From Chloroflexota bacterium (GTDB lineage Bacteria > Chloroflexota > JAJPGV01), in NCBI GenBank assembly GCA_021325635.1, contig JAJPGV010000055.1:1-64000 (forward strand): a stretch of DNA of 64,000 nucleotides, written 5' to 3'. Of this stretch, positions 7,481 through 29,086 are shown piece by piece. How positions within the stretch are numbered: position 1 is the first letter of the stretch; each line of letters starts with the position of its first letter. The translations under genes and the position numbers were made by a program. The notes under the pieces were generated by a model, which saw only the letters and a list, made by a program, of their open reading frames with translations, searched no databases and had not been told where the DNA came from.

Positions 7481-7522
7481 AGCGAGCTTCTCGATCGGCT
7501 CTATCGGGCGTTGGCGCTCGAC

Positions 7523-9265
7523 TTACAAGCGATCGCGAGAGAGGCGGTAGCCGAAGGAGCGCGCGCCGATGAGCACCAGCATCACGAAGACCGTGATGAG
7601 GACGCCCACGGCTGCGCCGCGCTCGCGCGTACCCGAGAAGCTGTACTCAAGCATCAGGATGGACAGCGGACGCGAGCGGGCGCTGTACAGCAGCACCGGC
7701 GTGGTGATGTCGTGAATGGCGGTAAGGAACGCCAGCAGCCCCACAGTCACCGCCGTCGGAGCGATTAACCGCAGCAAAATGCGGCGGTACACCAGCAGCC
7801 ATGAGCCGCCGCAGATCCGTCCCGCCTCCTCCAGCTCGCGGCCCAGCTGCAGGAAGCTCGTCTTGAAGAACTGGGTGCTCAGCGGGCTGGCATGGATCAC
7901 GAAGGCCACGACCATCCCCGCGACCGAGCCATAGAGCACGGTTCGCAGGGGCGTGGCCAGGAACAGCCACAGCAGCCCCAGGCTCATCAGGATCCCTGGC
8001 ATGGCCCAAGGCGACCAGACCAGGAAGTCCGCCGTCCTCAGCGCTCGCGAGGGGTGTCGCACGACGGAGTAAGCGACGGTCGAGTACAGGACGATGGCAA
8101 TCAGGGCGGACGCCGTGGCGATGATCAGGCTGTTGCGCACGCCCAGCAGAAACGCCGGGTCGATGAAGACGGCGTGCCACTGGTTCAGCGTGAACGGCTC
8201 CGGCGAGTTGAAGAACCCGTAGATCTTCATGAAAGAGCCCAGCAGCAGGAACGCGAACGGGGCCGCCAGCGCGATCGCGAAGAAGCCGTAGCAGGCGGCG
8301 CTGAGCAGCCAGCCCCAGCGTCCCAGCCGGGCGGGGGCGCTGCTGTAGCCTCGGCCGTCCACCGTGGTGAACGATCTGCCCCGGAGGAAGCGCCTGTAGA
8401 GCGCGGCCAGCGCAAACAGGAACACCACGAAGACGAAGGCCAGCGCCGTCGCCGCGCCAACGTTCGAAGGCTGATTGCTCACCAGCTCGTACACGCGCGT
8501 GGAGTACACGTAGAACTTGCTGGGAATCCCCAACAGCAGCTCGACCTCAAAAGCCTCGAAGCTGAAGACCAGCGATATCAGGGCCACCAGCAGGATGGCC
8601 GGCAGCAGCAGCGGCAGCGTAACCTTCAGGATCGCTTGGCGAGTCGTTGCGCCGCAGACTTTGGCGGCTTCCTCGGTTGCCGCCGACACTCGCCGGAAGG
8701 CGGGGGTCAACAGCACCACCTTGAAGGCAATGGCGTTCGATGCCAGGTGCACCCAGGTGATGCCCCAGAAGCCGTAGATGTTGAATGCCTTTCCCTGCAT
8801 GAACGGCAGGTGGGACAGGCCGCTGTTGAGCAGCCCCAGGCGCGGGTCGAGCAGCAGGATCCAGCCGAGCGTGAGCGGGAGGATAGGGGTGAAGATGGAC
8901 AGCCAGGACAGCAGCTCGATACCCGAGCGGCCGGGCATGTCGGTGCGCGTGACCAGCCAGGTGATGCCGATGCCTATGGGCATCGAGATGGCTGTTCGAA
9001 CGAGCGCGAGGGACAGGCTGTTCCACAGGGCGCTGAGGGTCGTTGGATTGCCAAACGCATCGGCCCAGTTCTTGAGGCCGAAGCGTGCCGCCGCCCCGGT
9101 CCCTGCCACATTGAAGCTGTTGGCCAGCAGCAGGATCGTTGGCGCGGCGATGAGCAGGCCTACGGCCAGCGGGAGGATCGCACCGGACAGGCGCTTCACT
9201 CTCAGCTCCAGCCTCAGGCCGCGGGTTGTTGCCCGCGGCGCGGTGCCCGCGGTTACGGCTGCCAT
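7523..9265 (-). CDS. ABC transporter permease, fused double-domain FbpB type
   Basis: This 580-residue membrane protein has two BPD_transp_1-like halves with EAA loops at EEAAKVCGATTRQAILKVTL (first half) and EEAGRICGGSWLLVYRRILL (second half). It lies on the minus strand directly downstream of a binding-protein gene, so the two form an importer unit that mirrors the plus-strand unit opposite. The N-terminus before the first membrane segment is basic, and no clear Shine-Dalgarno was seen at the ATG. No ATPase is adjacent. Its similarity to the convergent permease suggests that both belong to one expanded transporter family. Confidence 0.92.
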   Translation of the reverse strand: MAAVTAGTAPRATTRGLRLELRVKRLSGAILPLAVGLLIAAPTILLLANSFNVAGTGAAARFGLKNWADAFGNPTTLSALWNSLSLALVRTAISMPIGIGITWLVTRTDMPGRSGIELLSWLSIFTPILPLTLGWILLLDPRLGLLNSGLSHLPFMQGKAFNIYGFWGITWVHLASNAIAFKVVLLTPAFRRVSAATEEAAKVCGATTRQAILKVTLPLLLPAILLVALISLVFSFEAFEVELLLGIPSKFYVYSTRVYELVSNQPSNVGAATALAFVFVVFLFALAALYRRFLRGRSFTTVDGRGYSSAPARLGRWGWLLSAACYGFFAIALAAPFAFLLLGSFMKIYGFFNSPEPFTLNQWHAVFIDPAFLLGVRNSLIIATASALIAIVLYSTVAYSVVRHPSRALRTADFLVWSPWAMPGILMSLGLLWLFLATPLRTVLYGSVAGMVVAFVIHASPLSTQFFKTSFLQLGRELEEAGRICGGSWLLVYRRILLRLIAPTAVTVGLLAFLTAIHDITTPVLLYSARSRPLSILMLEYSFSGTRERGAAVGVLITVFVMLVLIGARSFGYRLSRDRL

Positions 9266-10913: not shown

Positions 10914-11723
10914 ATGAAGGACATCAAGCACAAGTTCAAGCCCGGCGAAAAGCTGTCGCGAGCCGAGGCCGACGAGCTGCTGGACGAGCTGTACGCCTGG
11001 ACGGACGGCGTCTTCCAGCGCGAGATCGTGCACGGCGACTTCATGTCTCGGCTGGCTTCCGGCACTCTGCCGATGGACACGGTGCGGCTGTTCTGGGCCA
11101 ACTGGTACTACTTCGTGTCGGAGATCAACAACTTCCACGGCATTACGTACCAGCGCTTCCTGGGCTTCTTCAAGCGCTACCCGGATCTGCTGGCCGCATA
11201 TGCCGACAAGATCGCCGACGAGCTCATCCACCCGCGCGCGCCAGGGCACATCGCCGTGGTCATCGAGCAGGGCAAGAACTTTGGCCTCAGTGAGGAGGAG
11301 ATGCTGGAGTGCGAGATGCTGCCGGAGCCGCGCGCCTGGACGGAATGGTTCCGCGGGCTGGCCTACGAGGGCAACCTGGCGGAGTGGTGGGCCGCTCACC
11401 AGGTTGAGCAGTGCATCGGCCAGTGGGCAGCCATGTGCCGCAAGGCGCTGCGCCAGCACTACGGCTTCAGCGATGCCGACCTGGTCTACTTCCAGGTGCA
11501 CGAGGAGGCAGACCTCGAGGTGCACGAAGGCGGGATCATTCCGCATGCTGAGTTCAACCGGATCACGCTGCGGCATCTGCTCGAGAGCGGCATGGCGGAT
11601 ATGCGTCCCGGCTTCTCGATCGGGTATTGCGCGCGCATGACCATGGCCTATTTCCGCTGGTTCCTCGATGGCTGCTATGCTGGGTCGGGAGCGGCCGAGA
11701 AGACGCCGGCAGGAGTTCGCTAG
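10914..11723 (+). CDS. PqqC/TenA-fold protein (haem-oxygenase-like diiron oxidase candidate)
   Basis: This 269-residue, mostly helical protein resembles the TenA/PqqC 'iron-containing redox enzyme' family. Helices carry FWANWYYFVSEINNFHG and the acidic/His-rich motif VHEEADLEVHEG (about residues 193-204), where family members place metal ligands. Members of this fold oxidise small molecules with O2 through a diiron centre (UndA, CADD-like) or without metal (PqqC). No other PQQ genes are nearby, so a PQQ role is unlikely. It starts a plus-strand run of HDO, binding protein, UbiD, binding protein, UbiD, aldolase and MFS. This suggests an oxygen-dependent step in the same pathway. A second member of the superfamily is at 20708-21511. 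Confidence 0.75.
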   Translation: MKDIKHKFKPGEKLSRAEADELLDELYAWTDGVFQREIVHGDFMSRLASGTLPMDTVRLFWANWYYFVSEINNFHGITYQRFLGFFKRYPDLLAAYADKIADELIHPRAPGHIAVVIEQGKNFGLSEEEMLECEMLPEPRAWTEWFRGLAYEGNLAEWWAAHQVEQCIGQWAAMCRKALRQHYGFSDADLVYFQVHEEADLEVHEGGIIPHAEFNRITLRHLLESGMADMRPGFSIGYCARMTMAYFRWFLDGCYAGSGAAEKTPAGVR

Positions 11724-11725
11724 CT

Positions 11726-12907
11726 GTGCGGGCGCGGGTGTGGATGACCTCCGCGGGGGCAGGGGTGGCGGCCAAAGGTCAGTCTGCCTTGAAGGTGGGC
11801 GGGCGGTCGGTGGGGCTAGGCCTGCTGGCCACGATGATCGCCGGGTGCGGCGGGCAGGCGGCACCGGCGTCCACAGTCGCCGCTAGCTCGGCCATCTCTA
11901 CGCCGGCCGTCAGCTCGGCGAAGCCCGCCGCCAGCCAGGCGAGCGCCGCCGCTTCTAAGCCGGCCGCCAGCGCTTCTGCCGGCGGGTCGGCTTCAGCCAG
12001 CGCCAAGCCAGCGGCGTCCGGTCTTACGCCCGTCAGCATCGAGGTGCCCAACAAGGGCATTGCCTTCGCCTACCTGTACGTGGCGCAGGACCTGGGCATC
12101 TTTCAGAAGCACGGCATCGATCCGCGTATCTCGGTGATCGCTCCGCCGGCTGCCTCGGCGGCGCTGCAGGCCGGCGAGCTCGATTTCATGTCGGCGGTAG
12201 GGTCAGCCATGACTGCCGCTCTCGGCGGCTTGCCGATTCGGGTGGTTGAAGTCTCGTCCAACCAGCCGAACTTCCTGATGTACGGTGCCAAGGGTGTTAC
12301 CAGCGTGGATCAGCTCAAGGGCAAGACGGTTGCAGCTTATGCGCCGGGCAACACGGTGAACCTGGTGATGGTGGAGTTGCTGAAGCGCAAGGGCCTGGAT
12401 GCGAGCCAGTACACCATCCTGAACGCCGGGGCGGACGCAGGCCGGGCGGCGGCCATCCAGAACGGCGCGGCAGCTGCAACGCTCATGGAAGCGTCAAATG
12501 CGCTGGCCCTCAAGAAGGATGGCTTCCCTCAGCTCACGACGATCGCCGACGTCCCGGCGTTGCCCTTCACCGGGCTGGCCGCGTCGCAATCCACGTTGAA
12601 AAGCAAAGCGGCGGTGATGCGCGAGGCTATTGCCGCTACCCTCGAAGGCACGGATCTCATGCGGACGCAAAAGGCGCAGGTGCTGCCGGTTCTGCAAAAG
12701 GAGTTCGATCTGTCGGCCGATGACGCCGGACAGCTCTTCGACGAGATGCAGGGAAGCTGGACGGATAGCGGCAAGCCGAGTCAAGCCGCAACCGACTTCG
12801 AATTTGCCAGCCTTCAGGTCGAGCAGAAGCTGAGCGCTCCGGTGAAGCCGGAGCAGGTGTACGACTTCTCGATCGTCGATGGCCTGCGCGGGGGTGCGGG
12901 CAAGTAG
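11726..12907 (+). CDS. ABC substrate-binding lipoprotein, NMT1/THI5-like
   Basis: This 393-residue protein has a lipobox at IAGC (C41) and a long low-complexity linker of Ala, Ser, Lys and Pro to about residue 105. The domain resembles SsuA/ThiY-type receptors: IAFAYLYVAQDLGIFQKHGI, ALQAGELDFMSAVGSA and DQLKGKTVAAYAPG. The GTG at 11726, three bases after the preceding stop and with AGGAG at 11711-11715, was taken as the start; ATG at 11744 is an alternative. The stop is two bases from the UbiD start, so binding protein and decarboxylase are translationally linked. Such receptors bind sulfonates, pyrimidines or aromatic acids; the ligand here is unknown. Confidence 0.85.
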   Translation: MRARVWMTSAGAGVAAKGQSALKVGGRSVGLGLLATMIAGCGGQAAPASTVAASSAISTPAVSSAKPAASQASAAASKPAASASAGGSASASAKPAASGLTPVSIEVPNKGIAFAYLYVAQDLGIFQKHGIDPRISVIAPPAASAALQAGELDFMSAVGSAMTAALGGLPIRVVEVSSNQPNFLMYGAKGVTSVDQLKGKTVAAYAPGNTVNLVMVELLKRKGLDASQYTILNAGADAGRAAAIQNGAAAATLMEASNALALKKDGFPQLTTIADVPALPFTGLAASQSTLKSKAAVMREAIAATLEGTDLMRTQKAQVLPVLQKEFDLSADDAGQLFDEMQGSWTDSGKPSQAATDFEFASLQVEQKLSAPVKPEQVYDFSIVDGLRGGAGK

Positions 12908-12909
12908 CC

Positions 12910-14499
12910 ATGGGCGGCTACTACTTGGACCTGCGGCAGTACCTGGCAGCGCTCGAGGATCAGGGTTTGCTGCGGCGGGTGCGGCGCTCGATCAACAAGG
13001 ACACCGAGCTGCATCCGCTGGTTCGCCTCCAGTTCCGCGGGCTGCCTGAGGAGCAGCGTACGGCGTTCCTGTTCGAGAACGTGACTGACAGTGCCGGCCG
13101 CGGCTTCGATATGCCGGTCGTCGTGGCCTGCATGGCTGGCTCGCGGGCGATCTACGGGCTAGGGATGCAATGCGACCCCAAGGACATCGGAGCCAAGTGG
13201 GATGAGGCTCAGCGCAACCGGATTGCGCCGGTACGAGTGGATTCGGGTCCCGTGCAGGAGCTGGTGTTGACCGGGGACGAGCTGCGGGCAGCCGGTGGCC
13301 TGATGACGCTGCCCATTCCCATCTCGACACCGGGCTTCGACAATGCGCCCTACATGACGGCGGCCCATTTCGTCACGCGTGACCCGGAAACCAAGCTCCA
13401 GAATATGGGCAACTATCGCGCCCAGCTCAAGAGTCCGACTCGCCTGGGGATTTATGCCGGCACCACGCAGGACATCGCCGTGGACTGGCACAAATGGCGC
13501 AAGCTCGGCCAGCCCATGGAGGTCGCCATCGCCATCGGCGTGACGCCGAACTTGTCCTATGTGGCGGCTACCAAGCTGCCGCATGACGTGGGCGAATATG
13601 AGGTGGCCGGCGGCATCGCCGGCGAGCCGGTGCAGCTGGTGCGCTGCAAGACGGTCGATCTCGAGGTGCCGGCGCAGGCGGAGATCGTCGTGGAGGGCAT
13701 CGTCCGGACCGACGTACTGGAGATGGAAGGTCCGTTTGGGGAATTCACGGGCTATATGGCGCAGCGCGACTGGAACCTGTTTGTGGAGGTGCAGTGCATC
13801 ACACGGCGCCGGCAGCCGGTGTACCAGGCGTTCCTCAGCCAGTTTCCGCCCAGTGAAAGCAGCAAGCTCCGTGGCGTAGGCAAGGAAGCGGTGCTGTACA
13901 AGCGGCTGGCGGTGGACCACGCTATTCCGGGCGTGCTGGACGTCATCCTCCAGGAGACCGCCGGGAGCTACGGTATCTGCGTTGTGCGCATGGATCGCAG
14001 CCAGGGCGGTGACGTGCGCAAAGCGCTGGAGCTCATCGGCTGCGATCCGCGCCTGCACAGCAAGATGGTGATAGCCGTGGACCCGGACATCGATCCGCGC
14101 GATCCCGATTCGGTCAATTGGGCCATCAGCTTCTGCATGCAGCCGCATCGCGACGCCTGGGTCGTGCCGGTACGTCCTCTGGACCTGGACTATTCGGCGG
14201 CTCCGCCGAACGCGCGACGGGACGTGACTGCCGAAGCCAACGAAGGCTCCTCGCTGCTGATCGATGCCACCCGCAAATGGGCCTATCCGCCAACCTCCCT
14301 CCCGGCCAAGAAGTACATGGAACGAGCCATCGATCTGTGGCGTGAGGAGGGCTTACCCGAGCTGCACCTCAAATCACCCTGGTTTGGGTACGAGCTGGGG
14401 CACTGGTCGGAAGAGGATCGGGTGCAGGCCGAGCGCGCGACCCGCGGCGACTACCTGCTGACCGGTGAGGAACAATCTCAGCAGCGGCGCCCGGCGTAG
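12910..14499 (+). CDS. UbiD family decarboxylase
   Basis: This 529-residue protein matches the prenylated-FMN-dependent UbiD family along its full length. The signature Arg/Glu/Glu set is R170 (MGNYRAQ), E273 and E278 in EMEGPFGEFTGY, with the spacing of Fdc1 and UbiD. Further family segments are PIPISTPGFDNAPY and VDPDIDPRDPDSVNWA near the C-terminus. The family reversibly decarboxylates aromatic, heteroaromatic or alpha,beta-unsaturated acids in the cytoplasm. No ubiX, which makes the cofactor, is in the window. The quinone pathway is an unlikely role because three divergent UbiDs sit among receptors and Rieske genes. It pairs with the binding protein directly upstream. Confidence 0.9.
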   Translation: MGGYYLDLRQYLAALEDQGLLRRVRRSINKDTELHPLVRLQFRGLPEEQRTAFLFENVTDSAGRGFDMPVVVACMAGSRAIYGLGMQCDPKDIGAKWDEAQRNRIAPVRVDSGPVQELVLTGDELRAAGGLMTLPIPISTPGFDNAPYMTAAHFVTRDPETKLQNMGNYRAQLKSPTRLGIYAGTTQDIAVDWHKWRKLGQPMEVAIAIGVTPNLSYVAATKLPHDVGEYEVAGGIAGEPVQLVRCKTVDLEVPAQAEIVVEGIVRTDVLEMEGPFGEFTGYMAQRDWNLFVEVQCITRRRQPVYQAFLSQFPPSESSKLRGVGKEAVLYKRLAVDHAIPGVLDVILQETAGSYGICVVRMDRSQGGDVRKALELIGCDPRLHSKMVIAVDPDIDPRDPDSVNWAISFCMQPHRDAWVVPVRPLDLDYSAAPPNARRDVTAEANEGSSLLIDATRKWAYPPTSLPAKKYMERAIDLWREEGLPELHLKSPWFGYELGHWSEEDRVQAERATRGDYLLTGEEQSQQRRPA

Positions 14500-14599
14500 G
14501 GTGCCAACGGTCGACAGCCGAGAAATGTGCCCGTGTCATACCCTGAAGGGCGCAGCCTCCCGGCGGCATTCACAACGGTGTGAAAGGACAGAATAAGAG

Positions 14600-15715
14600 A
14601 TGATTCAGCTGCCAATCTTCGATCCCCGGGGAGGCCTCCGCATGGCCCGTAGCGCTATCTCGGGCGCGCTTGCGGCCCTGGTGCTGGCCAGCTGCGGCGG
14701 CAGCGCTGCTCCCGCCCCAGCCACAACCACTGGCGCTCCGTCGTCATCAGCCTCGGCTGGAGCGTCCGTGGCTTCGACCGTGGCTAAGCCCGCCGCGAGC
14801 GCATCTTCCACGGCCAAGCCGTCGGCCGCGGCGAGCGGCCAGCTCCGCCCGCTCAAGATCTCGGTGCCGACGAAGGGCAGCGCCTTCTCGTACCTGTACG
14901 TGGCCAAGGACCTGGGCTTCTTCGAGCAGCACGGCATCGACGCCCAAATAGCCGTGGTTCCCCCGGCCAACGCCGTGACTGCGCTGCAGTCCGGCGACCT
15001 GGACTATGCGGCTACCATCGGCTCGACGATCCGGGCCGCTCTGCGAGGCCTGCCGGTTCGCGTGGTGATGGTCGGCTCCAACCGGCCGGATTTCGTCATC
15101 CTTGGGCAAAAGGGACTGACTTCGTTGGATCAGCTTTCGGGCAAGCTGATTGGCTCCGATGCGCCGCAGACCACGACTTTCGTCATGCTGACCGAGCTGA
15201 TGAAGCGCAAGGGCTTGGCAGGCAAGTATCAGACGCTGACCGCCGCAAACGATGAGGGCCGTGTGGCGCTTGTGACCAACGGACAGGCGGCCGCGTGCAT
15301 CATTGAAGTGTCGACCGCCCGCATTTTCGAGAAGCAGGGCTACAGCGAGCTGGCGCCTACGACGGATTTCCCTGAGGAGCCATTCGTGGGTCTGGGCGCG
15401 TCGCAGGCCGCGATTCAAAAGAAGGGCGACGTGCTTCGTGATGGACTGCAGGCGGTGCTGCAAGGCATCGACGCCATGCGCAATCAGAAGGACAAGGTCG
15501 TGCCGATCATGGCCAAGGAGTTCGACTTGAGCGCCGAGGACGCCGGCCAGATCTTCGATGCGCTGCGGCCGAACTGGACAGCGGACGGCAAGCCCAGCCA
15601 GGCGGCCAACGATTTCGAGTTCGCCAACGACAAGGACGCGCTGGAGCTGAAGGAGCTGCCGAAGCCCGAGCAGGTCTACGATTTCTCCCTGCTAGACCAG
15701 CTGTCCAAGAAGTAG
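14600..15715 (+). CDS. ABC substrate-binding lipoprotein, NMT1/THI5-like
   Basis: This 371-residue paralogue of the receptor at 11726 has lipobox LASC (C32), an Ala/Ser/Lys/Pro linker, and SAFSYLYVAKDLGFFEQHGI as the start of the binding domain. Its end, KPEQVYDFSLLDQL, is shared with the other NMT1-like receptors here. Two starts are possible: ATG 14600 with AAAGGA about 10 bases before it, and ATG 14642 with GGGGAGG 7 bases before it and the signal peptide directly after. The first is listed, but the second is a serious alternative. It is followed 12 bases later by another UbiD gene, repeating the receptor-decarboxylase unit. Confidence 0.85.
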   Translation: MIQLPIFDPRGGLRMARSAISGALAALVLASCGGSAAPAPATTTGAPSSSASAGASVASTVAKPAASASSTAKPSAAASGQLRPLKISVPTKGSAFSYLYVAKDLGFFEQHGIDAQIAVVPPANAVTALQSGDLDYAATIGSTIRAALRGLPVRVVMVGSNRPDFVILGQKGLTSLDQLSGKLIGSDAPQTTTFVMLTELMKRKGLAGKYQTLTAANDEGRVALVTNGQAAACIIEVSTARIFEKQGYSELAPTTDFPEEPFVGLGASQAAIQKKGDVLRDGLQAVLQGIDAMRNQKDKVVPIMAKEFDLSAEDAGQIFDALRPNWTADGKPSQAANDFEFANDKDALELKELPKPEQVYDFSLLDQLSKK

Positions 15716-15727
15716 GAGTATCAACTG

Positions 15728-17380
15728 ATGAGTATTGCCAGCCCGGAGTCGCCCGCCGTCAACGTCGGCGGATCGGGTGAGCTGCGCGCCCACCTTCAAG
15801 AGCTCGAGCGACGCGGCAAGCTGATTCGGGTCAGCCGTCCGATCAACAAGGACACCGAGCTGCACCCGCTGGTGCGCTGGCAGTTCCGCGGTCTGCCGGA
15901 ATCGCAGCGCAAGGCCTTCCTGTTCGAGAACGTGTACGACAGTCGCGGTCGGAGCTACGGCTTCCCGGTCGTCGTTGGCGCGCTGGCCGCGTCAGAGGAG
16001 ATCTACGCGCTGGCCCTGGGAAGCTCCACGGCCGATCTTTCCGCAAACTGGCGCAAGGCACTGTCCTCGCCGGTCGAGCCCGTGCTCGTGGACGCCGCTC
16101 CGGTCCAGGAGGTGGTGCACAGCGGCAGCGATCTCCTTGCTTGGGGCGGGCTGGACATGCTGCCGGTCCCCATCTCCACGCCGGGCTTCGACAATGCGCC
16201 GTACTTCAATTCCGCGGTGTGGATCGTGCGCGATCCCGAGACGGGTCTGCGCAACGCCGGGCTCTACCGGGGCATGATCAAATCGCCCACGAGGACCGGG
16301 GTCTTCTCGGAGTCGAGCAAGGACACCACCATCATCTGGGAGAAGTGCAACCGCGACGGCCGTCCGCTGGAAGCCGCGGCCGTCATCGGCGCGGCGCCGG
16401 CAGTGTACTTCTCGGCCATCCAGATCGCGCCGTTTGGCACCGACGAGCTGGGTATCGCGGGGGCGCTGCAGGGCCACCCGGTTGAGCTGGTCAAGTGCCG
16501 CACCATTGACCTGGAGGTTCCGGCTCAGGCCGAATTCGTGGTCGAGGGCGTTATCCACACCGACATGCTGGAGCCCGAGGGCTCGTTCGGCGAGGCGCAC
16601 GGCTACTGCGACCCGCGCTCGCTGTCCATGGCCTTCGAGGCAAAGTGCATCACCCACCGGCGCGACGCCATCTTCCTGTCGATCATCAGCCAGCTCACGC
16701 CCAGCGAGAGCAGCAAAACTAAGCAGGCTGGATATGAGGCCAACCTGCTGCGTTATCTCCGTGAGGGTTGTGGCTTGCGCGGAGTGCAGCGGGTGATGCT
16801 GAAGGAGGAGCTGCTGAACCGCCAGTACTGCGTGATCGTCATGCGTAAGACCGATCGCTATGAGCCGATGAACGCGCTGTACGCGATGCTCAACCGGCGG
16901 GCTTCACCCAAGATCCTGGTGGCGGTGGACGAGGACATCGATCCCACCAACGACACCATGGTCAATTGGGCGATCGTCAACCGCTGCCAGCCGCACCGCG
17001 ATCTCAAGGTCGTCCATCCGCGGCCGCTGCCCTTCGGGCCGCTGCGTTATGTCGGCGGGTCGGAAGGCTACGACCGGCAGGATTCGGCGGTGCTTATCGA
17101 CGCCACACGCAAGGCAGACTTCCCGCCGGTGGCTCTGCCCAAGCGGGAGTTCATGGAGAACGCCCGCAAGATCTGGGAGGAGCTCGATCTTCCCGCGCTG
17201 GATCCGCGCACGCCGTGGCACGGCTATTCACTTGGCTTGTGGCCGCAGGAAAACGCGGATGAGGCCGAGCTGGCCATCGAGGGCCGATACTACGAGACTG
17301 GCGAGAAGCTGATGCAGCGTCGGGTGCCCACGCCACCCGGTACCCGTCTGCATGAGGTCCGGCGCCACGACCTGCACTGA
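15728..17380 (+). CDS. UbiD family decarboxylase
   Basis: This 550-residue UbiD paralogue has the key residues R181 (AGLYRGM), E284 and E289 in EPEGSFGEAHGY. It shares INKDTELHPLVR and PISTPGFDNAPY with the UbiD at 12910, so the two arose by duplication together with their receptors. The substrate loop differs (EAHGY against EFTGY), which may mean a different acid. A prenyl-FMN cofactor is expected. The start ATG follows GGAGTATCAACTG. The aldolase gene follows 15 bases downstream, so the decarboxylase and the C-C lyase are probably co-transcribed. Confidence 0.9.
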   Translation: MSIASPESPAVNVGGSGELRAHLQELERRGKLIRVSRPINKDTELHPLVRWQFRGLPESQRKAFLFENVYDSRGRSYGFPVVVGALAASEEIYALALGSSTADLSANWRKALSSPVEPVLVDAAPVQEVVHSGSDLLAWGGLDMLPVPISTPGFDNAPYFNSAVWIVRDPETGLRNAGLYRGMIKSPTRTGVFSESSKDTTIIWEKCNRDGRPLEAAAVIGAAPAVYFSAIQIAPFGTDELGIAGALQGHPVELVKCRTIDLEVPAQAEFVVEGVIHTDMLEPEGSFGEAHGYCDPRSLSMAFEAKCITHRRDAIFLSIISQLTPSESSKTKQAGYEANLLRYLREGCGLRGVQRVMLKEELLNRQYCVIVMRKTDRYEPMNALYAMLNRRASPKILVAVDEDIDPTNDTMVNWAIVNRCQPHRDLKVVHPRPLPFGPLRYVGGSEGYDRQDSAVLIDATRKADFPPVALPKREFMENARKIWEELDLPALDPRTPWHGYSLGLWPQENADEAELAIEGRYYETGEKLMQRRVPTPPGTRLHEVRRHDLH

Positions 17381-17395
17381 AGGAGTCATTACGCC

Positions 17396-18376
17396 ATGCT
17401 GATGAAGCCGACTGACCTGCGAGGCATGTACGCCATCATCGCCACGCCGGCCAAGGAGGGCGCCGATCGTTGGGACGCGGTCGACACCGTCGACCTGGAC
17501 GAGACCGCGCGTCTCGTCAATAACCTCATCCGTGATGGAGCCACCGGGCTCATCACGCTGGGAACGACCGGCGAATGCGCCACGCTGACCCGCGAGGAGT
17601 ACGAGGCCTACGTGGAGTGCGTCCTGGCCACGGTCAACAAGCGGGTTCCTACGTTCGTCGGTGCGACGGCGCTGGGCCTGCATGAGGTCATCTGGCGGCT
17701 GCGATTCGTGCGCGATCACGGGGCTGATGGGACGCTGCTGGGCCTGCCCATGTGGCAGCCGCTGACCATCGACATGGCGGTGGAGTATTACGCCAACGTC
17801 GCGGAGGCCTTTCCCGATCTCTCGGTGATGGTCTACGCCAACTCACGCGCCTTCCGCTTCGATTACTCGCCCGAATTCTGGGGCCGGGTCATCGACAGGG
17901 CTCCCAACGTCATGGCGGCCAAGTTCTCGAACGCCAATACCCTGCTCGATTGTCTCGCAGCGGCAAGAGGGCGAGTGCATTTCCTGCCGAACGAAGGCGC
18001 GGTGCTTCGTTTCGCCGAGCTGTCGCCGGACACGACTGCAGCCTGCTGGGCCACGGCCGCGTCCATGGGACCGCGCCCAGCCGTGGCGTTGATGGAGGCC
18101 ATCCTGGCCAGGGATTGGGAGCGGGCCAAGACGATCAACGCGGACGTGAAATGGGCCTCAGAGCCGATCGAGCACATCGTGCGCAACGCCGAGGTGTTCG
18201 CCTCGTACAACATACAGATCGAGAAGATCCGCTTCAATGCCGCCGGCTACTCCAAAGCCGGGCCCATCCGTCCGCCCTACCATGTGGTTCCCGAGGAGTA
18301 CGCCGAAGCCGCTCGAGAATGTGGCCGCCGCTGGGCGCAGGTGGCTCAGAAGTACGCGACGGTCACTGCCAGCTGA
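17396..18376 (+). CDS. trans-o-hydroxybenzylidenepyruvate hydratase-aldolase-like protein (DapA/NAL superfamily)
   Basis: This 326-residue class I aldolase has the likely Schiff-base Lys K176 in VMAAKFSNA and Tyr Y147 in VYANSRAFRF. The segments GTTGECATLTREE, TLLGLPMW and AGPIRPPYHVVPEEY agree with remembered NahE/DoxI/PhdJ sequences much better than with ordinary dihydrodipicolinate synthases. Those enzymes split benzylidenepyruvates into an aromatic aldehyde and pyruvate during naphthalene and phenanthrene breakdown. Here the true substrate is unknown, and a related aryl-pyruvate or furan is possible. A good AGGAG precedes the ATG. It sits between two UbiD genes upstream and an MFS gene downstream. 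dapA for lysine synthesis is less likely given the context. Confidence 0.85.
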   Translation: MLMKPTDLRGMYAIIATPAKEGADRWDAVDTVDLDETARLVNNLIRDGATGLITLGTTGECATLTREEYEAYVECVLATVNKRVPTFVGATALGLHEVIWRLRFVRDHGADGTLLGLPMWQPLTIDMAVEYYANVAEAFPDLSVMVYANSRAFRFDYSPEFWGRVIDRAPNVMAAKFSNANTLLDCLAAARGRVHFLPNEGAVLRFAELSPDTTAACWATAASMGPRPAVALMEAILARDWERAKTINADVKWASEPIEHIVRNAEVFASYNIQIEKIRFNAAGYSKAGPIRPPYHVVPEEYAEAARECGRRWAQVAQKYATVTAS

Positions 18377-18480: not shown

Positions 18481-19677
18481 ATGAGCCTGCTGATCTCGTA
18501 TGTGGGCTCCTGGATGCAGCAGGTGGCGAACTCCTGGCTGCTGCTGCAGCTGAGCAACTCGGCCTTCCTGCTGGGCTTGCTGGGTCTGTTCACGTCACTG
18601 CCGTTCATTGCCGCGTCGATGATCGGCGGCACGCTGGCCGACAGGGTGGACCGGCGCAAGCTGCTGGGTTTTACGCAGAGCGCCCAAATTACCACGGCGG
18701 TGATTCAGGGCTTGCTGGTGCAGCTCGGGCTCATCCAGATATGGCACATCTATCTGTTTGGCGCACTCAACTGGACCATCGGCGGGTTCGACGCCGCCGG
18801 GCGGCAGGCGCTCATTCCAGCGCTGGTGCCACGCCAGTACCTGCCCAGCGCCATCGCGCTGAACGCCGCCCTGCGCCGTGGTGGACAGATCCTCGGGCCG
18901 GCGCTCGGCGGGACGACCATCGCTTTGCTGGGCGTCTCTGGAGCTTACTGGGCTAACGCCGCCAGCTTTGTGCCGGTGGTGCTGGCGGTGGCGCTCATCC
19001 GGGCCCGGCCGGTGACCGAGAACACCCATCGCCGCTCCATGGCGCATTCGATGCTTGATGGCCTGCGCTACGCCGGCGGTCGGCCGCTCATCGCCAGCCT
19101 GCTGGGCATCGAGGCTATCAGTGGCATCTTCGCTAACGTCAACCCGCTCATGGCGGTGTTTGCGCGCGACATCCTGCACGTAGGGGCGAGTGGTTTCGGG
19201 TTGCTGCTGTCCATGGTGGGCAGCGGCGCGCTGCTCGGAACGGCGGTGCTGGTAGCCTCCGGCAGCCGGCTGGTTCACGGCCGTTACATCATCCTGGCCA
19301 CGCTGCTGTATCCGCTGGTCGTGATCGGCTTTGCCTTTTCTCGGCTGTATCCGCTGTCGCTGGCGCTGCTGCTGGGCGTGGGCATGCTGGACATGATCGG
19401 CGGCACGCTTCGCAATACCGCCGTGCAGCTCGACGTCCCGGATAGCTACCGCGGTCGGATCATGGGCCTGCTGTCGATCGCCGGCCGCGGCGTGAGCCCG
19501 CTGGGCGGTGTGCAGGCGGGAGCCGTGGCGAGCGTGCTGACGGTACCGGTGGCGCTGGTCGTCGGAGCGCTGGTGACGATGGGCTGGAGCGTGGCCACCG
19601 TCGTTCGTGCTCCCGCGATTCGGGCTTTCAGCGAGGGGAGGGCAGAAGGCGAGCTGGCGTCCTCGCAGGCGATCTAG
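18481..19677 (+). CDS. MFS transporter, EntS-like, start uncertain
   Basis: This protein of at least 398 residues has about 12 membrane segments and the MFS loop motif GGTLADRVDRRKLL near residue 45-55. It belongs to the MFS_3/EntS-like exporter group. The same frame stays open upstream to 18403 and encodes ALGFRDYRLLW just before the listed ATG, a stretch normally part of such proteins. No ATG, GTG or TTG lies in that extension, so the real start may be CTG (18442 or 18451) or a frame error may be present. It could export or import the pathway substrate or an end product. The stop overlaps the menA stop by four bases (CTAG). Confidence 0.85.
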   Translation: MSLLISYVGSWMQQVANSWLLLQLSNSAFLLGLLGLFTSLPFIAASMIGGTLADRVDRRKLLGFTQSAQITTAVIQGLLVQLGLIQIWHIYLFGALNWTIGGFDAAGRQALIPALVPRQYLPSAIALNAALRRGGQILGPALGGTTIALLGVSGAYWANAASFVPVVLAVALIRARPVTENTHRRSMAHSMLDGLRYAGGRPLIASLLGIEAISGIFANVNPLMAVFARDILHVGASGFGLLLSMVGSGALLGTAVLVASGSRLVHGRYIILATLLYPLVVIGFAFSRLYPLSLALLLGVGMLDMIGGTLRNTAVQLDVPDSYRGRIMGLLSIAGRGVSPLGGVQAGAVASVLTVPVALVVGALVTMGWSVATVVRAPAIRAFSEGRAEGELASSQAI

Positions 19678-20594
19678 AAGACGATGCTGAGGACTTCGAG
19701 CACGCCGTAGATGAGCGTGAGTCGGGCGGTCCCGACCAGCGCGGCGTTCAGGGGCCGGCCTTCCTCCCGGAAGACGGTGCGTGCCAGGCGAATAGCCAGA
19801 GGGGCCGAGAGCCAGGGCAGCCAGAACCATATGGAGCCGCCGGTGAGCAGGCGGGCGGCGGGCAGAGCGTAGGTCACTGCCAGCAGCAGCGCGTATTCGA
19901 CCCGGGTCGCGCGGCGCCCGATGGCCACGGCCACGGTGAACTTGCCGGCAGCGTGGTCGGAATCGACGTCCCTGAGGTTGTTCACGACCAGGATGGCCGT
20001 GATGAGGAGACCGATCGGAATCGCATCGATCGCGGCCTGCGCGCTGAAGCCGGCGCCCTGCAGGTAGGCGCTGCCGGTGACTCCCAGCAGCCCGAAGAAG
20101 ATAAAGGCCGCGGCGTCGCCGAGGCCGTGGTAGGCCAGCGGCCAGGGTCCGCCGGTGTACAGAATGCCGGCGCCTATGCACGCCAGGCCTATGGCGAGCA
20201 CTGGCCAGCCGCCCACGGTGACCAAATAGATGCCGCACAGCAGCGCCAGCCCGAAGACGAGCGCCGCGCCATTGCGCACCGCCGTGGGAGGAAGGAGTCC
20301 CAGCTGCGTCACGCGCGGTGGTCCCAGCCGAGCGCTGGTATCGGCGCCGCGGATGAAGTCGAAGTAGTCGTTGGACAGGTTCGCCCCCACCTGCACCAGC
20401 ACCGCGCATAGGAGCGTGGCGGCGAACACGACAGGCCGGAATCCGGCCATTGAAGCTCCGCTGGCGCTGCCGACCAGCACCGGCACAATCGAGGCCGTGA
20501 GGGTTGGTGGCCTGGCCGCCATGAGCCAGGCTCGGAGCGGGCTTGGCCGCTGGCCCGGCATGCTCGCGGCAAGCGCTCCGGCGGGGCCGCTCAT
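19674..20594 (-). CDS. menA: 1,4-dihydroxy-2-naphthoate polyprenyltransferase (MenA), UbiA superfamily
   Basis: This 306-residue integral membrane prenyltransferase has the Mg-prenyl-diphosphate motifs NDYFDFIRGAD (about residues 75-85) and NNLRDVDSD (about 200-208), spaced as in MenA. It also has TARPPTL-like MAARPPTLTASI near the N-terminus. It would attach the isoprenoid tail to dihydroxynaphthoate in menaquinone synthesis, at the membrane. About eight membrane segments can be seen. It is alone, without other men genes, and flanked by transporter and PqqC-like genes. An ATG 33 bases further in is an alternative start. Other UbiA enzymes are possible but the motif pattern favours MenA. Confidence 0.85.
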   Translation of the reverse strand: MSGPAGALAASMPGQRPSPLRAWLMAARPPTLTASIVPVLVGSASGASMAGFRPVVFAATLLCAVLVQVGANLSNDYFDFIRGADTSARLGPPRVTQLGLLPPTAVRNGAALVFGLALLCGIYLVTVGGWPVLAIGLACIGAGILYTGGPWPLAYHGLGDAAAFIFFGLLGVTGSAYLQGAGFSAQAAIDAIPIGLLITAILVVNNLRDVDSDHAAGKFTVAVAIGRRATRVEYALLLAVTYALPAARLLTGGSIWFWLPWLSAPLAIRLARTVFREEGRPLNAALVGTARLTLIYGVLEVLSIVF

Positions 20595-20707
20595 TGCCAG
20601 CTGCGGTCGGATTGGCGGGAATGACCCAGGCTCACGTGGCGAGTGTACGCTGCCCGGTCGCGCGGATTGTGACGCGGCGAGCCACAGCCCGCCGCGTCAC
20701 CACGATC

Positions 20708-24056: not shown

Positions 24057-25001
24057 ATGGCCGGAGTCATGCGCATACGGGGGATCTATCGAGCAACCTC
24101 TCACCTTCCGGTGTGGGAGGTAATCCAGCAGGCGGGCATCTGGGAAAAGATGGGCATCGAGCTGGTGGATTTCCAGTTCGTGGACAGCTCGGCGGTGGCC
24201 GAGAGGCTGCTCCTGAGTGGGGAGATCGACTTCATCTCCGGCAACCACATCAGCCCCTACACGCAGTTCTACAAAGGCCAGCCGATCCGCCACCTGACCT
24301 CGCCCGGGAATAGCGTCCACGATGTGTGCGTCACCCGCGAGCGCATCGGATCGCTGAGCGACCTGCGAGGCGTGCGGGTGGGCGACACGGCGCAGATCAG
24401 CGCGGATGGGGGCTATGCCCACAATCGCGGGAATCACATCTTGTACCTCATGCGCGAGGGTGTGCAGCCGAGTGACGTCACCTGGGTCGAGCTGGCCGAC
24501 AAGAATGGCGAAGAGTTTGCCCGCAACCAGCTGGCAGCCATGAAGGACGGCCGGATCGACGCCACGTTTGTCACAGGCAGCGCTGCCGACTATGAAGCGG
24601 CCGGCTTCCACCTCTCCACGCCGGCCCGCCTGCCCATGATCAACGGTCCAACCATCACCTGCTCCAGTGAGACCTTGCGGCGGCGGCCAGGATTAGCGGA
24701 AAAGCTGGTCGAAGCGCAGGTCCTGGGCATTCACTACGCGCACGCCCACGAGGCGGAGACCAACCGCATCCTGGCAGACCTGTCTGGCCGCCAGGGTTGG
24801 GCTCGACCGGTGACGGCGGAGCGAATCACACGCATGCCCAGGAAGCCGTACCCGGAGATGGAGGCGGTCGCGAACGCGTATGAGCTGGCCTGCCTTCAGC
24901 ATCCCGAAACGCGCAGCGTGAGTCCCCTGGCGCTGTGGGACATGCACTACCTGAGAGAGCTGGACGACACGGGCTACATCGACCGGCTGTACGCTGCCTG
25001 A
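24057..25001 (+). CDS. NMT1/THI5-like substrate-binding-fold protein without signal peptide
   Basis: This 314-residue protein has the periplasmic-binding fold of the NMT1/SsuA type: PVWEVIQQAGIWEKMGIELV, LLSGEIDFISGNHI and LSDLRGVRVGDTAQ. Unlike most receptors in the window, it begins MAGVMRIRGIYRATSH and has no signal peptide, linker or lipobox. The ATG at 24057 with GGGAGAA 8 bases upstream was preferred over the longer frame from 24012. It may be a cytoplasmic enzyme of this fold, such as a THI5-like or decarboxylase-like protein, or be exported by an unknown route. The next gene is a classic lipoprotein receptor. Confidence 0.75.
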   Translation: MAGVMRIRGIYRATSHLPVWEVIQQAGIWEKMGIELVDFQFVDSSAVAERLLLSGEIDFISGNHISPYTQFYKGQPIRHLTSPGNSVHDVCVTRERIGSLSDLRGVRVGDTAQISADGGYAHNRGNHILYLMREGVQPSDVTWVELADKNGEEFARNQLAAMKDGRIDATFVTGSAADYEAAGFHLSTPARLPMINGPTITCSSETLRRRPGLAEKLVEAQVLGIHYAHAHEAETNRILADLSGRQGWARPVTAERITRMPRKPYPEMEAVANAYELACLQHPETRSVSPLALWDMHYLRELDDTGYIDRLYAA

Positions 25002-25125
25002 GGCGGCAGAAACGATCGCCATCCCTGTGGGTTGGCGCGGAGAGGCCGGCTTGAGGCACAATCAACAATCACCTGCGCAGCACGCTCCGTGCCATAGGGC
25101 GCAGAGCTATCGGAAGGAGGATGTG

Positions 25126-26208
25126 ATGCGAGCCCTTCGTTTGACTTCAGTGGCCTGGTCACTGGCGGCGCTGGTCGCGCTCGGAGGCTGCGGGTCGACC
25201 GCGAGCACTCCGGCGGCAAGCAGTCCGGGCAGCGCGGGCGCGAGTTCCGCCACGGCGAGTTCCGCGGCAGCCAAGCCGTCGGCTCCCGCCGCTGCTTCGG
25301 CTAAACCATCCGCCGCGGCATCCGCCCCAGCTTCCGGTTTGACACACGTCAAGATTGGACTGACGAGCAAGAGCACCGGCGGACTTTACCTGTACGTCGG
25401 TCAGGACCTGGGGATTTTCCAGGCACACGGGATTGATGCGGAGATGGTCATCGGGCAGTCGAATGCGCTGGCGCCGGCGCTGGTGAAGGGCGATCTCGAC
25501 TTCATGGGGACCATTCCACCGGCGATCCAGGCTGCCGAGCGGGGGCTGCCCGTTCGTGGGGTGTTCGTCGCCAAGGATCATCCCGAGTACCTGCTGGTCG
25601 GCGACGTCGGCGTTACCCAGGTGAGCCAGCTCAAGGGCAAGCAGCTGGCGGGAAGCAATCCGACCCAGCTGCCCACGCTGATGATGCAGCAGCTCTTGGA
25701 GCTCGATGGCCTCAAACCGAGTGACTACACCGTCATCCCGCTGGCCGACGATCCGGCCCGCGCCGCGACCGTGGCCAACCACCAGGCGGCGGCCGGCGTA
25801 TTGGGCCTGGCAGAGGCGCTGCCGCTGCTCGACCAAGGCCACCAGGTGATAGACAGCACCCTATCGAAGATCTACTCGCCCAGCAACGGGCTGGCGGTCA
25901 CGCTCACCGCGCTCGACAAGCGTCGGGACCTGGTGCAGCGCATGATTGACGCTTCGCTGGAAGCGACCAACGTCGCCGCAAACGACAAGACCAAGGCCAC
26001 GGGTGTGTTGACCAAGGAGTTTGGTCTGAGCGAAGCCAATGCCGGGAAGCTGTTCGATCTCATGAAATCCACGTACACCCAGGCGGGCCGTCCGGCGCCA
26101 CAGTCGATCAAAGGCCAGCTCGAGGCCGACGCGAAGGCCATGGAGCTCAAGGAAGTGGCTGCGCCCGATCAGGTGTACGACTTCAGCCTGCTGCCACCGG
26201 CCAAGTGA
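25126..26208 (+). CDS. ABC substrate-binding lipoprotein, NMT1/THI5-like
   Basis: This 360-residue receptor has lipobox ALGGC (C22), then an Ala/Ser/Pro/Lys linker to about residue 70. The binding domain begins STGGLYLYVGQDLGIFQAHGI and ends PDQVYDFSLLPPAK, so it is the third member of the family with 11726 and 14600. The ATG at 25126 follows GGAAGGAGG by 5 bases; the open frame before it is not coding. It is followed after 19 bases by a Rieske gene and then a UbiD gene. This is the third receptor-enzyme unit of the window and the only one with an oxygenase inside it. Confidence 0.88.
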   Translation: MRALRLTSVAWSLAALVALGGCGSTASTPAASSPGSAGASSATASSAAAKPSAPAAASAKPSAAASAPASGLTHVKIGLTSKSTGGLYLYVGQDLGIFQAHGIDAEMVIGQSNALAPALVKGDLDFMGTIPPAIQAAERGLPVRGVFVAKDHPEYLLVGDVGVTQVSQLKGKQLAGSNPTQLPTLMMQQLLELDGLKPSDYTVIPLADDPARAATVANHQAAAGVLGLAEALPLLDQGHQVIDSTLSKIYSPSNGLAVTLTALDKRRDLVQRMIDASLEATNVAANDKTKATGVLTKEFGLSEANAGKLFDLMKSTYTQAGRPAPQSIKGQLEADAKAMELKEVAAPDQVYDFSLLPPAK

Positions 26209-26227
26209 TGCCCGGAGGGGTCCTTTC

Positions 26228-27538
26228 GTGTTAACCGCGGAGCAGAACCGTCTTCTCACCGAGACCGGGCCGGACACGCCAGGTGGCCAGCTCCTGCGCC
26301 GCTACTGGCAGCCTGTGGCGTTATCGGAGGAGCTGCCTCCCGGCGGTGCTCCGCTGCCAGCCCAGGTCATGGGCGAGGATCTGGCGCTCTTTCGTGACGA
26401 TGCCGGCCACGTCGGCCTGCTGGGTCTGCACTGCAGCCACCGAGGGGCCGACCTGAGCTACGGCCGGGTCGAAGATGGGGGTTTGCGCTGCCTGTATCAT
26501 GGGTGGCTGTACGACGTTCACGGCAACTGTCTGGATCAGCCGGGCGAGCCGGCCGGCAGCGACTTCTGCCGCAAGGTGCGCCAGCTCTCCTACCCCTGTC
26601 AGGAAGCGAACGGGCTGGTGCTCGCTTACATGGGGCCTGGCGAGGCGCCGCTGCTGCCCGCCTATGAGTTCTTGACCGCGCCCGAGGGGCACGCGTACGT
26701 CAATAAAGTGCACCACGAGTGCAACTACTTGCAATCGAACGAGGGCAACATCGATCCGGTGCATCTCTCATTCCTGCACCGTTTTCTCAAGGACGATCAG
26801 CCCCGCATCGTGCGCGGCACGGCCGAGACCGGTTACTACACGCTGATGGGCAGAGAGCTGGCGCCGCAGATCGAGATCGAGGAGACCGACTACGGCCTGC
26901 GGATCTCGGCGGTGCGCGACGCAGGCTCCGGGAAGCGCTATCTGCGGGTGACGAACTTCGTGTTCCCCAATTTCGCGTCATTCCCGGGCAACACCGGCGG
27001 CGACGGCTTCAGCGTGAACTGGCACGTGCCGATCGACGACACCCATCACTGGAAGTACCAGATTGTCTACAAGCGCAGCCAGCCGATGGACCTGGAGAAG
27101 GCTCGCCGGCAGGCGGCGCAAGAGCTGGACGAGAGCTACCACACCTACCGGCATCGCGGCAACCGCTATCAGCAGGATCGCCAGGAGATGAAGACCACCA
27201 CCTTCATTGGCATGGGCAGCATGTTCGCGGTGCACGATAAGTTCGCTACCGAAGGCGAGGGCGCCATCCAGGACCGCACCACCGAGCGGCTGTCCTATAC
27301 CGACAAGGCGATTGGGGCCAGCCGCCAGCTGCTGCTTCAGGCGATCCGCGACGTCCAGGAGGGCCGCGAGCCTCCGCACATCGTCCGCGACGCGGCCCGC
27401 AACGACTTCTCGCACATGGTGGTGCTGTCCGAAGCGATTGAGGGCTCGGTCGACTGGCGGAATTACTGGAAGACCGGCGGCACGCAGGGCGCCAAGGTGA
27501 GCGCGGCGGCGCTGGCAACCGCCGGCTCGAAATCATAG
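26228..27538 (+). CDS. Rieske (2Fe-2S) aromatic ring-hydroxylating oxygenase, alpha subunit
   Basis: This 436-residue paralogue of the protein at 953 has Rieske ligands C69-x-H71 and C88-x2-H91 and the mononuclear iron motif D176-x2-H179-x4-H184 (DPVHLSFLH). The start is GTG with GGAGGGG at about 26216. It sits between the receptor at 25126 and a UbiD at 27611, and all three are probably one transcript. The order suggests import, ring hydroxylation or O-demethylation, and decarboxylation, as in phthalate-type routes. The reductase partner is not encoded here. Confidence 0.92.
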   Translation: MLTAEQNRLLTETGPDTPGGQLLRRYWQPVALSEELPPGGAPLPAQVMGEDLALFRDDAGHVGLLGLHCSHRGADLSYGRVEDGGLRCLYHGWLYDVHGNCLDQPGEPAGSDFCRKVRQLSYPCQEANGLVLAYMGPGEAPLLPAYEFLTAPEGHAYVNKVHHECNYLQSNEGNIDPVHLSFLHRFLKDDQPRIVRGTAETGYYTLMGRELAPQIEIEETDYGLRISAVRDAGSGKRYLRVTNFVFPNFASFPGNTGGDGFSVNWHVPIDDTHHWKYQIVYKRSQPMDLEKARRQAAQELDESYHTYRHRGNRYQQDRQEMKTTTFIGMGSMFAVHDKFATEGEGAIQDRTTERLSYTDKAIGASRQLLLQAIRDVQEGREPPHIVRDAARNDFSHMVVLSEAIEGSVDWRNYWKTGGTQGAKVSAAALATAGSKS

Positions 27539-27610
27539 CCTTGCATCCGGCCGCCGGCGTGAGCCGTGTTCGGCCGTTCCGAACCATCGAGGTCTGAACA
27601 GGAGGTTTCC

Positions 27611-29086
27611 ATGCTGGCTGCTGCCCCGGTCTCCGGTGCTGTGTATGACGACCTGCAGAGCTTCGTCGCCGCCTGCCAGGAGCTAGACGAGTGGCGTCTG
27701 ATCGACGGCGCCGATTGGGACCTGGAAATCGGCGCCCTCACGGAGGCCACGGCCGAGCTCATCGCCGAGCCGCCGCTGCTGCTGTTCGATAACGTTCGCG
27801 GCTATCCGGCTGGCTACCGGGTGGTCTCACTGCTGGTGGCGTCGTACCGCCGCGCCGCTCTGGCCATGGGCCTGCCAATCGACCGCCCCAAGCTCGAGCT
27901 CATGCGCCTGGCCGCACGCAAGGTGAAGGAGGCTCGGCCAATCGAGCCCGAACGTGTCTCTGGCGGTCCGGTCATGGATCGCATTCAACAGGGCGAGGCG
28001 GTGGACCTGCTGAGCTTCCCCGCGCCGCGCTACCACGCGATGGATGGCGGCCGCTATATCGGCACCGGCGATTCGCTCATCTGCCGCGATCCCGACGGCG
28101 GCTTCGTGAACATGGGCACGTATCGGATGCAGGTGCACGAGCGCAACCTGCTGGGACTGTGGATGAGCCCCGGCCAGCATGGCCGCCAGATCTGCCAGCG
28201 TTACTGGGATCGTGGCCAGGCCTGCCCCGTCGTGGCCACCTTTGGGGCGGATCCGCTGCTGTTCATGGGGTCGCATACCAAGATTCCCTGGGGCACGAGC
28301 GAGCTGGCGACGGTGGGTGGTCTGCGGGGCCGGCCGGTGCAGATCGTCGAGGGCCCGCTCACCGGGTTGCCCATCCCGGCGTTTGCTGAGATCGCCATCG
28401 AAGGCGAGGTCCCGCCGCCCAGCGTGGAGGGTCGCGATGAGGGCCCGTTCGGTGAATGGCCGGGCTACTACTCGGGCGGCACCCGCGGAACGGGCGAGCC
28501 GCAACCCGTCATCCGCGTGAAGGTGCTCTACCATCGTGAAAACCCGATGATCCTCAATGAGGCGCCGCTGTGGCCGGGAGCCCCCAAGCACGGCCTGCCC
28601 ATCAACGCCGGTATCCTGTGGGATCAGCTCGAAGCCGCCGGCATCCAGGACATTGCCGGGGTTGGCTTCCACACCCCCTACATGATCGTCGTCTCCATTC
28701 GCCAGCGCTACGCCGGCCACGCCAAGCAGGCCGGGCATGCCGTCATCGCCTGCTCTGCCGGGGCGCGCAATGGACGCTACGTGGTGGTCGTGGACGAGGA
28801 CATCGACCCCACGGACCTCAAGGAGGTGCTGTGGGCGATGGAAACGCGGGTGGACCCGGCGAGCGACATCGAAGTCGTCGCCGGCTGCTGGGGCACCCCG
28901 CTGGACCCACGCATGTCGCCGCAGCAGCGCGAAACGCGGGATCACACCAACAGCCGAGCCATCTTCTACGCCGTGCGGCCGTTTCTGTGGAAGGACCGCT
29001 TCCCGCAGGTGAGCCGCAGCCCGCGCGAGCTGCGGCAGAGCGTCGTGGAGAAGTATCGGGACCTGCTGGGCTTCCCTCGAACCTAA
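27611..29086 (+). CDS. UbiD family decarboxylase
   Basis: This 491-residue UbiD member is more distant from the pair at 12910 and 15728. The key residues are R172 (MGTYRMQ), E277 and E282 in DEGPFGEWPGYY. It also has SFPAPRYHAMDGGRYIGTGD and VVDEDIDPTDLKEVLWA, as in the vanillate/phenolic-acid branch. Prenyl-FMN is expected. The ATG at 27611 has AGGAGG 5 bases upstream, so the longer frame from 27566 was not used. It is the last gene of the receptor-Rieske-UbiD unit and converges on another Rieske gene only four bases away. Confidence 0.9.
   Translation: MLAAAPVSGAVYDDLQSFVAACQELDEWRLIDGADWDLEIGALTEATAELIAEPPLLLFDNVRGYPAGYRVVSLLVASYRRAALAMGLPIDRPKLELMRLAARKVKEARPIEPERVSGGPVMDRIQQGEAVDLLSFPAPRYHAMDGGRYIGTGDSLICRDPDGGFVNMGTYRMQVHERNLLGLWMSPGQHGRQICQRYWDRGQACPVVATFGADPLLFMGSHTKIPWGTSELATVGGLRGRPVQIVEGPLTGLPIPAFAEIAIEGEVPPPSVEGRDEGPFGEWPGYYSGGTRGTGEPQPVIRVKVLYHRENPMILNEAPLWPGAPKHGLPINAGILWDQLEAAGIQDIAGVGFHTPYMIVVSIRQRYAGHAKQAGHAVIACSAGARNGRYVVVVDEDIDPTDLKEVLWAMETRVDPASDIEVVAGCWGTPLDPRMSPQQRETRDHTNSRAIFYAVRPFLWKDRFPQVSRSPRELRQSVVEKYRDLLGFPRT

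Follow-up and report, generated by a model that had tools for sequence, protein, structure and literature searches.

The six genes at positions 10914-18376 of the window, the whole 64,000-nucleotide stretch of DNA analysed here, are read with a probability of roughly 0.55 as a catabolic operon for the uptake and decarboxylation of aromatic or α,β-unsaturated acids, in which a receptor gene was duplicated in tandem and the UbiD-family decarboxylases were recruited separately. All six lie on the plus strand (Table 1), separated from TENA1 to ALD by gaps of 2, 2, 100, 12 and 15 bases, and this spacing and shared orientation make the run appear operon-like. The initial annotation described a receptor gene followed by a UbiD gene, 2-12 bases apart, twice over, and both the coordinates and the Pfam families bear this out: R1, which has a GTG start 2 bases past TENA1, ends at 12907, leaving a 2-base gap before U1 (12910), and R2 ends at 15715, 12 bases before U2 (15728). 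These receptor-UbiD units plausibly serve uptake and decarboxylation and may, as the initial annotation suggested, handle one acid each. A second plus-strand group (24058-29086) comprises R0, R3, a LigXa-type Rieske oxygenase and U3; it matches the third unit described earlier, in which the oxygenase stands between receptor and UbiD (25126-29086), with R0 additionally preceding R3. The source genome is that of a Chloroflexota bacterium, a placement that follows from the genome of L106 ('Chloroflexi bacterium'; G404, and G120 with identical coordinates) belonging to its phylum; it comprises 4.64 Mb in 63 contigs and is 96% complete; below, C-numbers denote its contigs, L-numbers UbiD loci from elsewhere and G-numbers genomes.

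Table 1. Genes of the receptor-UbiD run and of the second group, in window coordinates.
Feature	Coordinates	Strand	Evidence
TENA1, TenA/haem-oxygenase-fold protein	10914..11723	+	PF14518 33.6 bits; PF03070 32.8 bits
R1, NMT1-type lipoprotein receptor	11726..12907	+	PF09084 67.0 bits; lipobox IAGC; Ala/Ser/Pro linker
U1, UbiD-family decarboxylase	12910..14499	+	PF01977 191 bits; TIGR00148 257.6 bits (cut-off 244.85)
R2, NMT1-type lipoprotein receptor	14600..15715	+	PF09084 55.2 bits; lipobox LASC
U2, UbiD-family decarboxylase	15728..17380	+	PF01977 174.8 bits; sister of C61:175-1863
ALD, NahE/PhdJ-type hydratase-aldolase (arylidene-pyruvate cleavage family)	17396..18376	+	phmmer match to 6dao
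R0, leaderless NMT1/PBP2-fold protein	24058..25001 (ORF listed from 24012)	+	PF09084 29.3 bits
R3, NMT1-type lipoprotein receptor	25126..26208	+	PF09084 57.8 bits; R1/R2 clade
Rieske oxygenase, LigXa-type	26228..27538	+	PF00355 66.2 bits; PF19301 122.8 bits
U3, UbiD of another subfamily (phenylphosphate-carboxylase-beta-like)	27566..29086	+	PF01977 181 bits

R1, R2 and R3 each combine an NMT1 domain, scoring above the Pfam cut-off of 20.5 bits, with a lipoprotein signal and an Ala/Ser/Pro-rich linker after the lipobox. The PEQVYDF-type C-termini that the receptors were said to have in common are confirmed, as the motif [DE]Q[VI]YD[FY] occurs in only four of the 63 NMT1 proteins of the genome, namely R1, R2, R3 and a paralogue on C42 (C42:2470-3558), the last being 64% identical to R3. 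R0 has neither a signal peptide nor a lipobox; its AlphaFold model (pLDDT 89) has periplasmic NMT1 proteins, Thi5 and DszB as its nearest PDB folds, and R0 could act in the cytoplasm in connection with UbiDs, either as an enzyme or as a binding protein. A function like that of 4,5-dihydroxyphthalate decarboxylase was considered for R0 and set aside, with NCBIfam and the fold search returning the NMT1/PBP2 class only. Members of the R0 clade also adjoin UbiDs on C32, L081 and L151.

U1, U2 and U3 all score above the Pfam UbiD cut-off of 23.3 bits, and U3 reaches 270 bits against TIGR02724, under the cut-off of 469. The catalytic R-E-E triad (equivalents of R173, E277 and E282) is kept in all three, in line with the E-R-E motif described for the family (PMC8379154). 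Elsewhere in the genome, UbiDs on C32 (76704, 84336, 86630 and 101584) and C22 (43939) have Asn in place of the catalytic Arg and EGPFGE without the first Glu, and may be non-decarboxylating relatives. The His ligand of the prenylated FMN (prFMN) metal, presumably equivalent to H191 of Fdc1, is kept in U3 and replaced by Asp in U1 and U2. Asp occupies this position in 53/86 members of the U1/U2 subfamily, which marks it as characteristic of the subfamily and not as a loss; altered chemistry in U1 and U2 is possible because of this substitution.

The flanking genes would act in oxidation and cleavage. TENA1 does open the unit with a haem-oxygenase-like protein, as previously noted: its AlphaFold model (pLDDT 77) has the CADD/PqqC/TenA/UndA fold, best matching CtCADD (TM 0.83-0.86 by target length; Foldseek E 1.3e-6), followed by PqqC, TenA, UndA and BesC. 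A sequence search of the PDB with TENA1 gave no match. Judged by the model, TENA1 is a probable haem-oxygenase-like di-iron oxidase (HDO), with candidate metal ligands spaced H-x3-D-x3-H against the canonical H-x3-D-x2-H, in a loop of low model confidence. A homologue 40% identical to it is encoded in L081. Thiamine-precursor salvage by TenA and a ThiY-like receptor was considered because TenA and NMT1 genes adjoin; it is disfavoured, as the fold search favours CADD over TenA, and UbiDs are not known to act in that process. A UbiA prenyltransferase and a second TenA-family protein are encoded side by side next to the cassette (19674-21511, minus strand). The aldolase reported at the end of the unit can be assigned specifically to the NahE/PhdJ hydratase-aldolase family: ALD matches 6dao over its full length (phmmer E 4.6e-75), and in alignment with NahE it conserves the AAKF lysine, the YAN tyrosine and asparagine, the CW tryptophan and the SYN asparagine, which are the Schiff-base and other active-site positions.

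Taken together as a pathway, the lipoproteins R1 and R2 would bind acids outside the membrane and pass them on to a permease whose gene lies elsewhere. U1 and U2, with prenylated FMN supplied by the single UbiX, would by analogy with their family remove the carboxyl group as CO2, and the HDO-fold TENA1 and ALD could then oxidize the product, or a side chain related to it, and cleave it. With regard to architecture, the receptor would have been duplicated in tandem within its own lineage, with two old UbiD subfamilies recruited separately.

That the receptor-plus-UbiD unit was copied in one piece, two or three times over, as proposed in the initial annotation, is very improbable, although the R-U-R-U order, the similar identities within the two pairs (approximately 48% for R1 and R2, 46% for U1 and U2) and the identical C-terminal receptor motif would all fit it. 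In trees from 'quick' searches, with branch support from SH-aLRT only, R1 and R2 are sisters (99), R3 is sister to C42:2470-3558 (100), and all four together make up a clade (100) that no external sequence joins in the tree, whereas no sister relation links U1 with U2, each being nearer to UbiDs of other phyla. A 69-row UbiD clade (SH-aLRT 100) contains U2 and excludes U1, and U2 groups with C61_175 and three other-phylum UbiDs (SH-aLRT 97-98). The C61 UbiD, on another contig, is the nearest paralogue of U2 (69.5% identity), the UbiD of L080, from a MAG labelled Deltaproteobacteria, is 61% identical to U2, and 18 external UbiDs, Chloroflexota and Desulfobacterales among them, find their best match in the source genome in U1, not U2. 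U1 lies on a longish branch, and the tree result was unchanged after dropping long rows, including one that meets U1. Forced monophyly of U1, U2 and the C61 UbiD was rejected (delta lnL 122, AU p = 0.0008).

Distances tell against joint duplication in the same way, with a patristic distance of 2.21 between U1 and U2 against 0.94 between R1 and R2. Between the comparable loci L081 and L086, the path length is 0.36 for the UbiDs and 0.97 for the NMT1 genes that follow them; as UbiDs are the slower of the two there, a U1-U2 distance well under 0.94 would be expected had receptor and enzyme duplicated together. U3 belongs to another subfamily, outside the UbiD clade described above and with its nearest paralogues (68%) on C61, though R3 falls within the R1/R2 clade. 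Given one clade of R1, R2 and R3, a U1 and U2 that are not sisters and a U3 placed elsewhere, the trees disagree at all three units, and the expectation that receptors and UbiDs co-diverge fails. No R1/R2-like receptor stands next to the external U1- or U2-type UbiDs. Under the model used, whole-unit duplication is already refuted for the current sequences; its sole rescue could be receptor gene conversion, that is, an ancient joint duplication followed by homogenization of the receptors. Similar gene order combined with similar identity did not, in this case, signify joint duplication. A hidden fourth unit, formed by joining the ends of C61, with its UbiD at 175, and of C42, with its receptor at 2470, was also considered and rejected, the ends having no overlap. 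The left end of C11 and the right end of C32 overlap by 63 bases, which suggests that these two contigs join.

The adjacency of receptor and UbiD genes recurs elsewhere. Among 80 loci of other genomes, picked solely for their similarity in UbiD, strong NMT1 genes adjoin a UbiD in L081, L086, L092, L106 (from a 'Chloroflexi bacterium'), L151 and L158, those in L081, L086, L092, L151 and L158 standing beside U1/U2-type UbiDs. The hosts of such adjacencies include other Chloroflexota, Deltaproteobacteria-labelled MAGs and a plasmid of Neorhizobium. On this Neorhizobium petrolearium plasmid (L182), a U2-like UbiD (44%) shares a cluster with UbiX, xanthine-dehydrogenase-type genes and an NMT1 protein that lacks a leader, and the species provides a cultivated relative in which the receptor-UbiD idea could be tested. 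The L182 cluster also encodes molybdenum hydroxylases and a tripartite-tricarboxylate receptor. The expectation that the same gene order would be found elsewhere holds in so far as NMT1-UbiD adjacency occurs in other phyla, but not for the receptors themselves: a profile of the R1/R2 clade (E <= 1e-45) had no match in any other of 400 genomes sampled from the phylum, the relatives searched being of the same phylum at closest. A literature search found no paper linking UbiD with NMT1 receptors.

A lesser possibility, though one to be taken seriously, is that receptors and UbiDs are neighbours merely as a result of their huge expansion in catabolic islands, with no functional pairing of receptor to enzyme. 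The genome encodes 35 UbiDs and 63 NMT1 proteins within its 4.64 Mb, and its same-strand adjacent pairs number only four (three in the operon and one on C32; 0.9 expected), two of which use one common receptor. Such adjacency statistics are biased where genomes were picked for showing adjacency; in the less biased test over the 80 loci, 11/29 strong NMT1 genes lie beside a UbiD (counted by hand), a weak enrichment (p = 0.048). The receptors next to related UbiDs also stem from different NMT1 clades, those of the other loci lying outside the R1/R2 clade. Against chance stand the 2- and 12-base gaps within one operon-like run and the recurrence of the adjacency across several phyla, with either gene coming first and the two sometimes alternating (L081, L086 and L151). 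The earlier claim that the pairing is unusual is accordingly true only in part: it is rare and weakly enriched among the 35 UbiDs of this genome, but recurs in at least six other loci and on a rhizobial plasmid. It is improbable, more so than chance neighbourhood, that the receptors, instead of being ABC receptors, act as extracellular sensors or carriers, for example by delivering to a sensor or to a non-ABC transporter. A PF00528 permease is encoded at 3 kb or less from just 12/63 NMT1 genes, and two MFS transporters are encoded just downstream (18481-19677 and 21796-23016), as this alternative would have it; the NMT1/SsuA/ThiY class is, however, best known in the role of ABC receptor, and no sensor kinase was found among the cluster genes scanned. 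The operon itself encodes no ABC permease or ATPase, a point against reading it as an uptake operon, and the nearest PF00528 permeases (6032-8980) are part of separate iron-type ABC genes.

Family searches across the genome and phylum place the catabolic operon in a wider setting. Besides the UbiD and NMT1 families, the source genome encodes seven TenA-family proteins and one UbiX (a 255-aa frame on C50, PF02441 142.6 bits), in addition to a CoaBC-like frame of 432 aa. More than 12 UbiDs are spread over approximately 120 kb of C32, and the single UbiX serves all the UbiDs of the genome. Any UbiD at all is found in only 100/301 Chloroflexota genomes, mostly as one copy. Where a genome has 12 or more UbiD candidates, at least 16 NMT1 candidates are present in 10/11 cases, compared with 10/290 among the others (Fisher p 1e-12, a test that ignores kinship and uses unscored first-look candidate counts), and the UbiD-rich Chloroflexota genomes span eight families. 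Genomes reached via loci of other phyla (G400-G403) contain 32 to 125 UbiDs. In the L151 genome (G402; 8.3 Mb), a single MAG, UbiD has 125 matches and NMT1 at least 138; its very large size makes a mixed bin possible. The joint expansion of the two families points to a lifestyle based on many different carboxylic acids. It is conceivable, though rather unlikely, that several uncultured soil and groundwater lineages mix and match, with each acid having its own orphan NMT1 receptor and its own UbiD, with a few shared transporters and one UbiX, and with modules shuffled rather than copied. Such uncultured genomes abound in unassigned UbiDs and orphan NMT1 genes, and loci that combine them with an aldolase or oxygenase allow direct, testable guesses about the acids handled.

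The components of the operon resemble known systems and depart from them in specific respects. In common with UbiD, Fdc1, VdcC, HmfF and phenylphosphate carboxylase, the decarboxylases have UbiD domains, the R-E-E triad and a genomic UbiX, but in the U1/U2 subfamily Asp frequently replaces the metal His, and the genes are paired with lipoprotein receptors. R1-R3 share the NMT1 domain, lipobox and flexible linker of NMT1/ThiY/SsuA-type binding proteins, and differ in lying near UbiD genes in a cluster that lacks an ABC permease and ATPase. TENA1 shares its predicted fold with the di-iron oxidases CADD, UndA and BesC and has Glu/His/Asp/His in comparable regions, whereas its metal motif has one extra residue and the sequence match is weak. 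ALD is similar over its full length to NahE (trans-o-hydroxybenzylidenepyruvate hydratase-aldolase) and PhdJ, with active-site positions conserved, although the neighbouring genes that were scanned include none for naphthalene or phthalate ring cleavage. Some aromatic-acid clusters come with a binding protein, for example TphC with the terephthalate genes. These clusters likewise have a binding-protein gene beside catabolic enzymes and a permease elsewhere, but use tripartite-tricarboxylate-type receptors and oxygenases where the present operon has NMT1 receptors and UbiDs. The gene order is real and recurrent, and is a variant of UbiD catabolic clusters combined with orphan NMT1 receptors rather than a new category.
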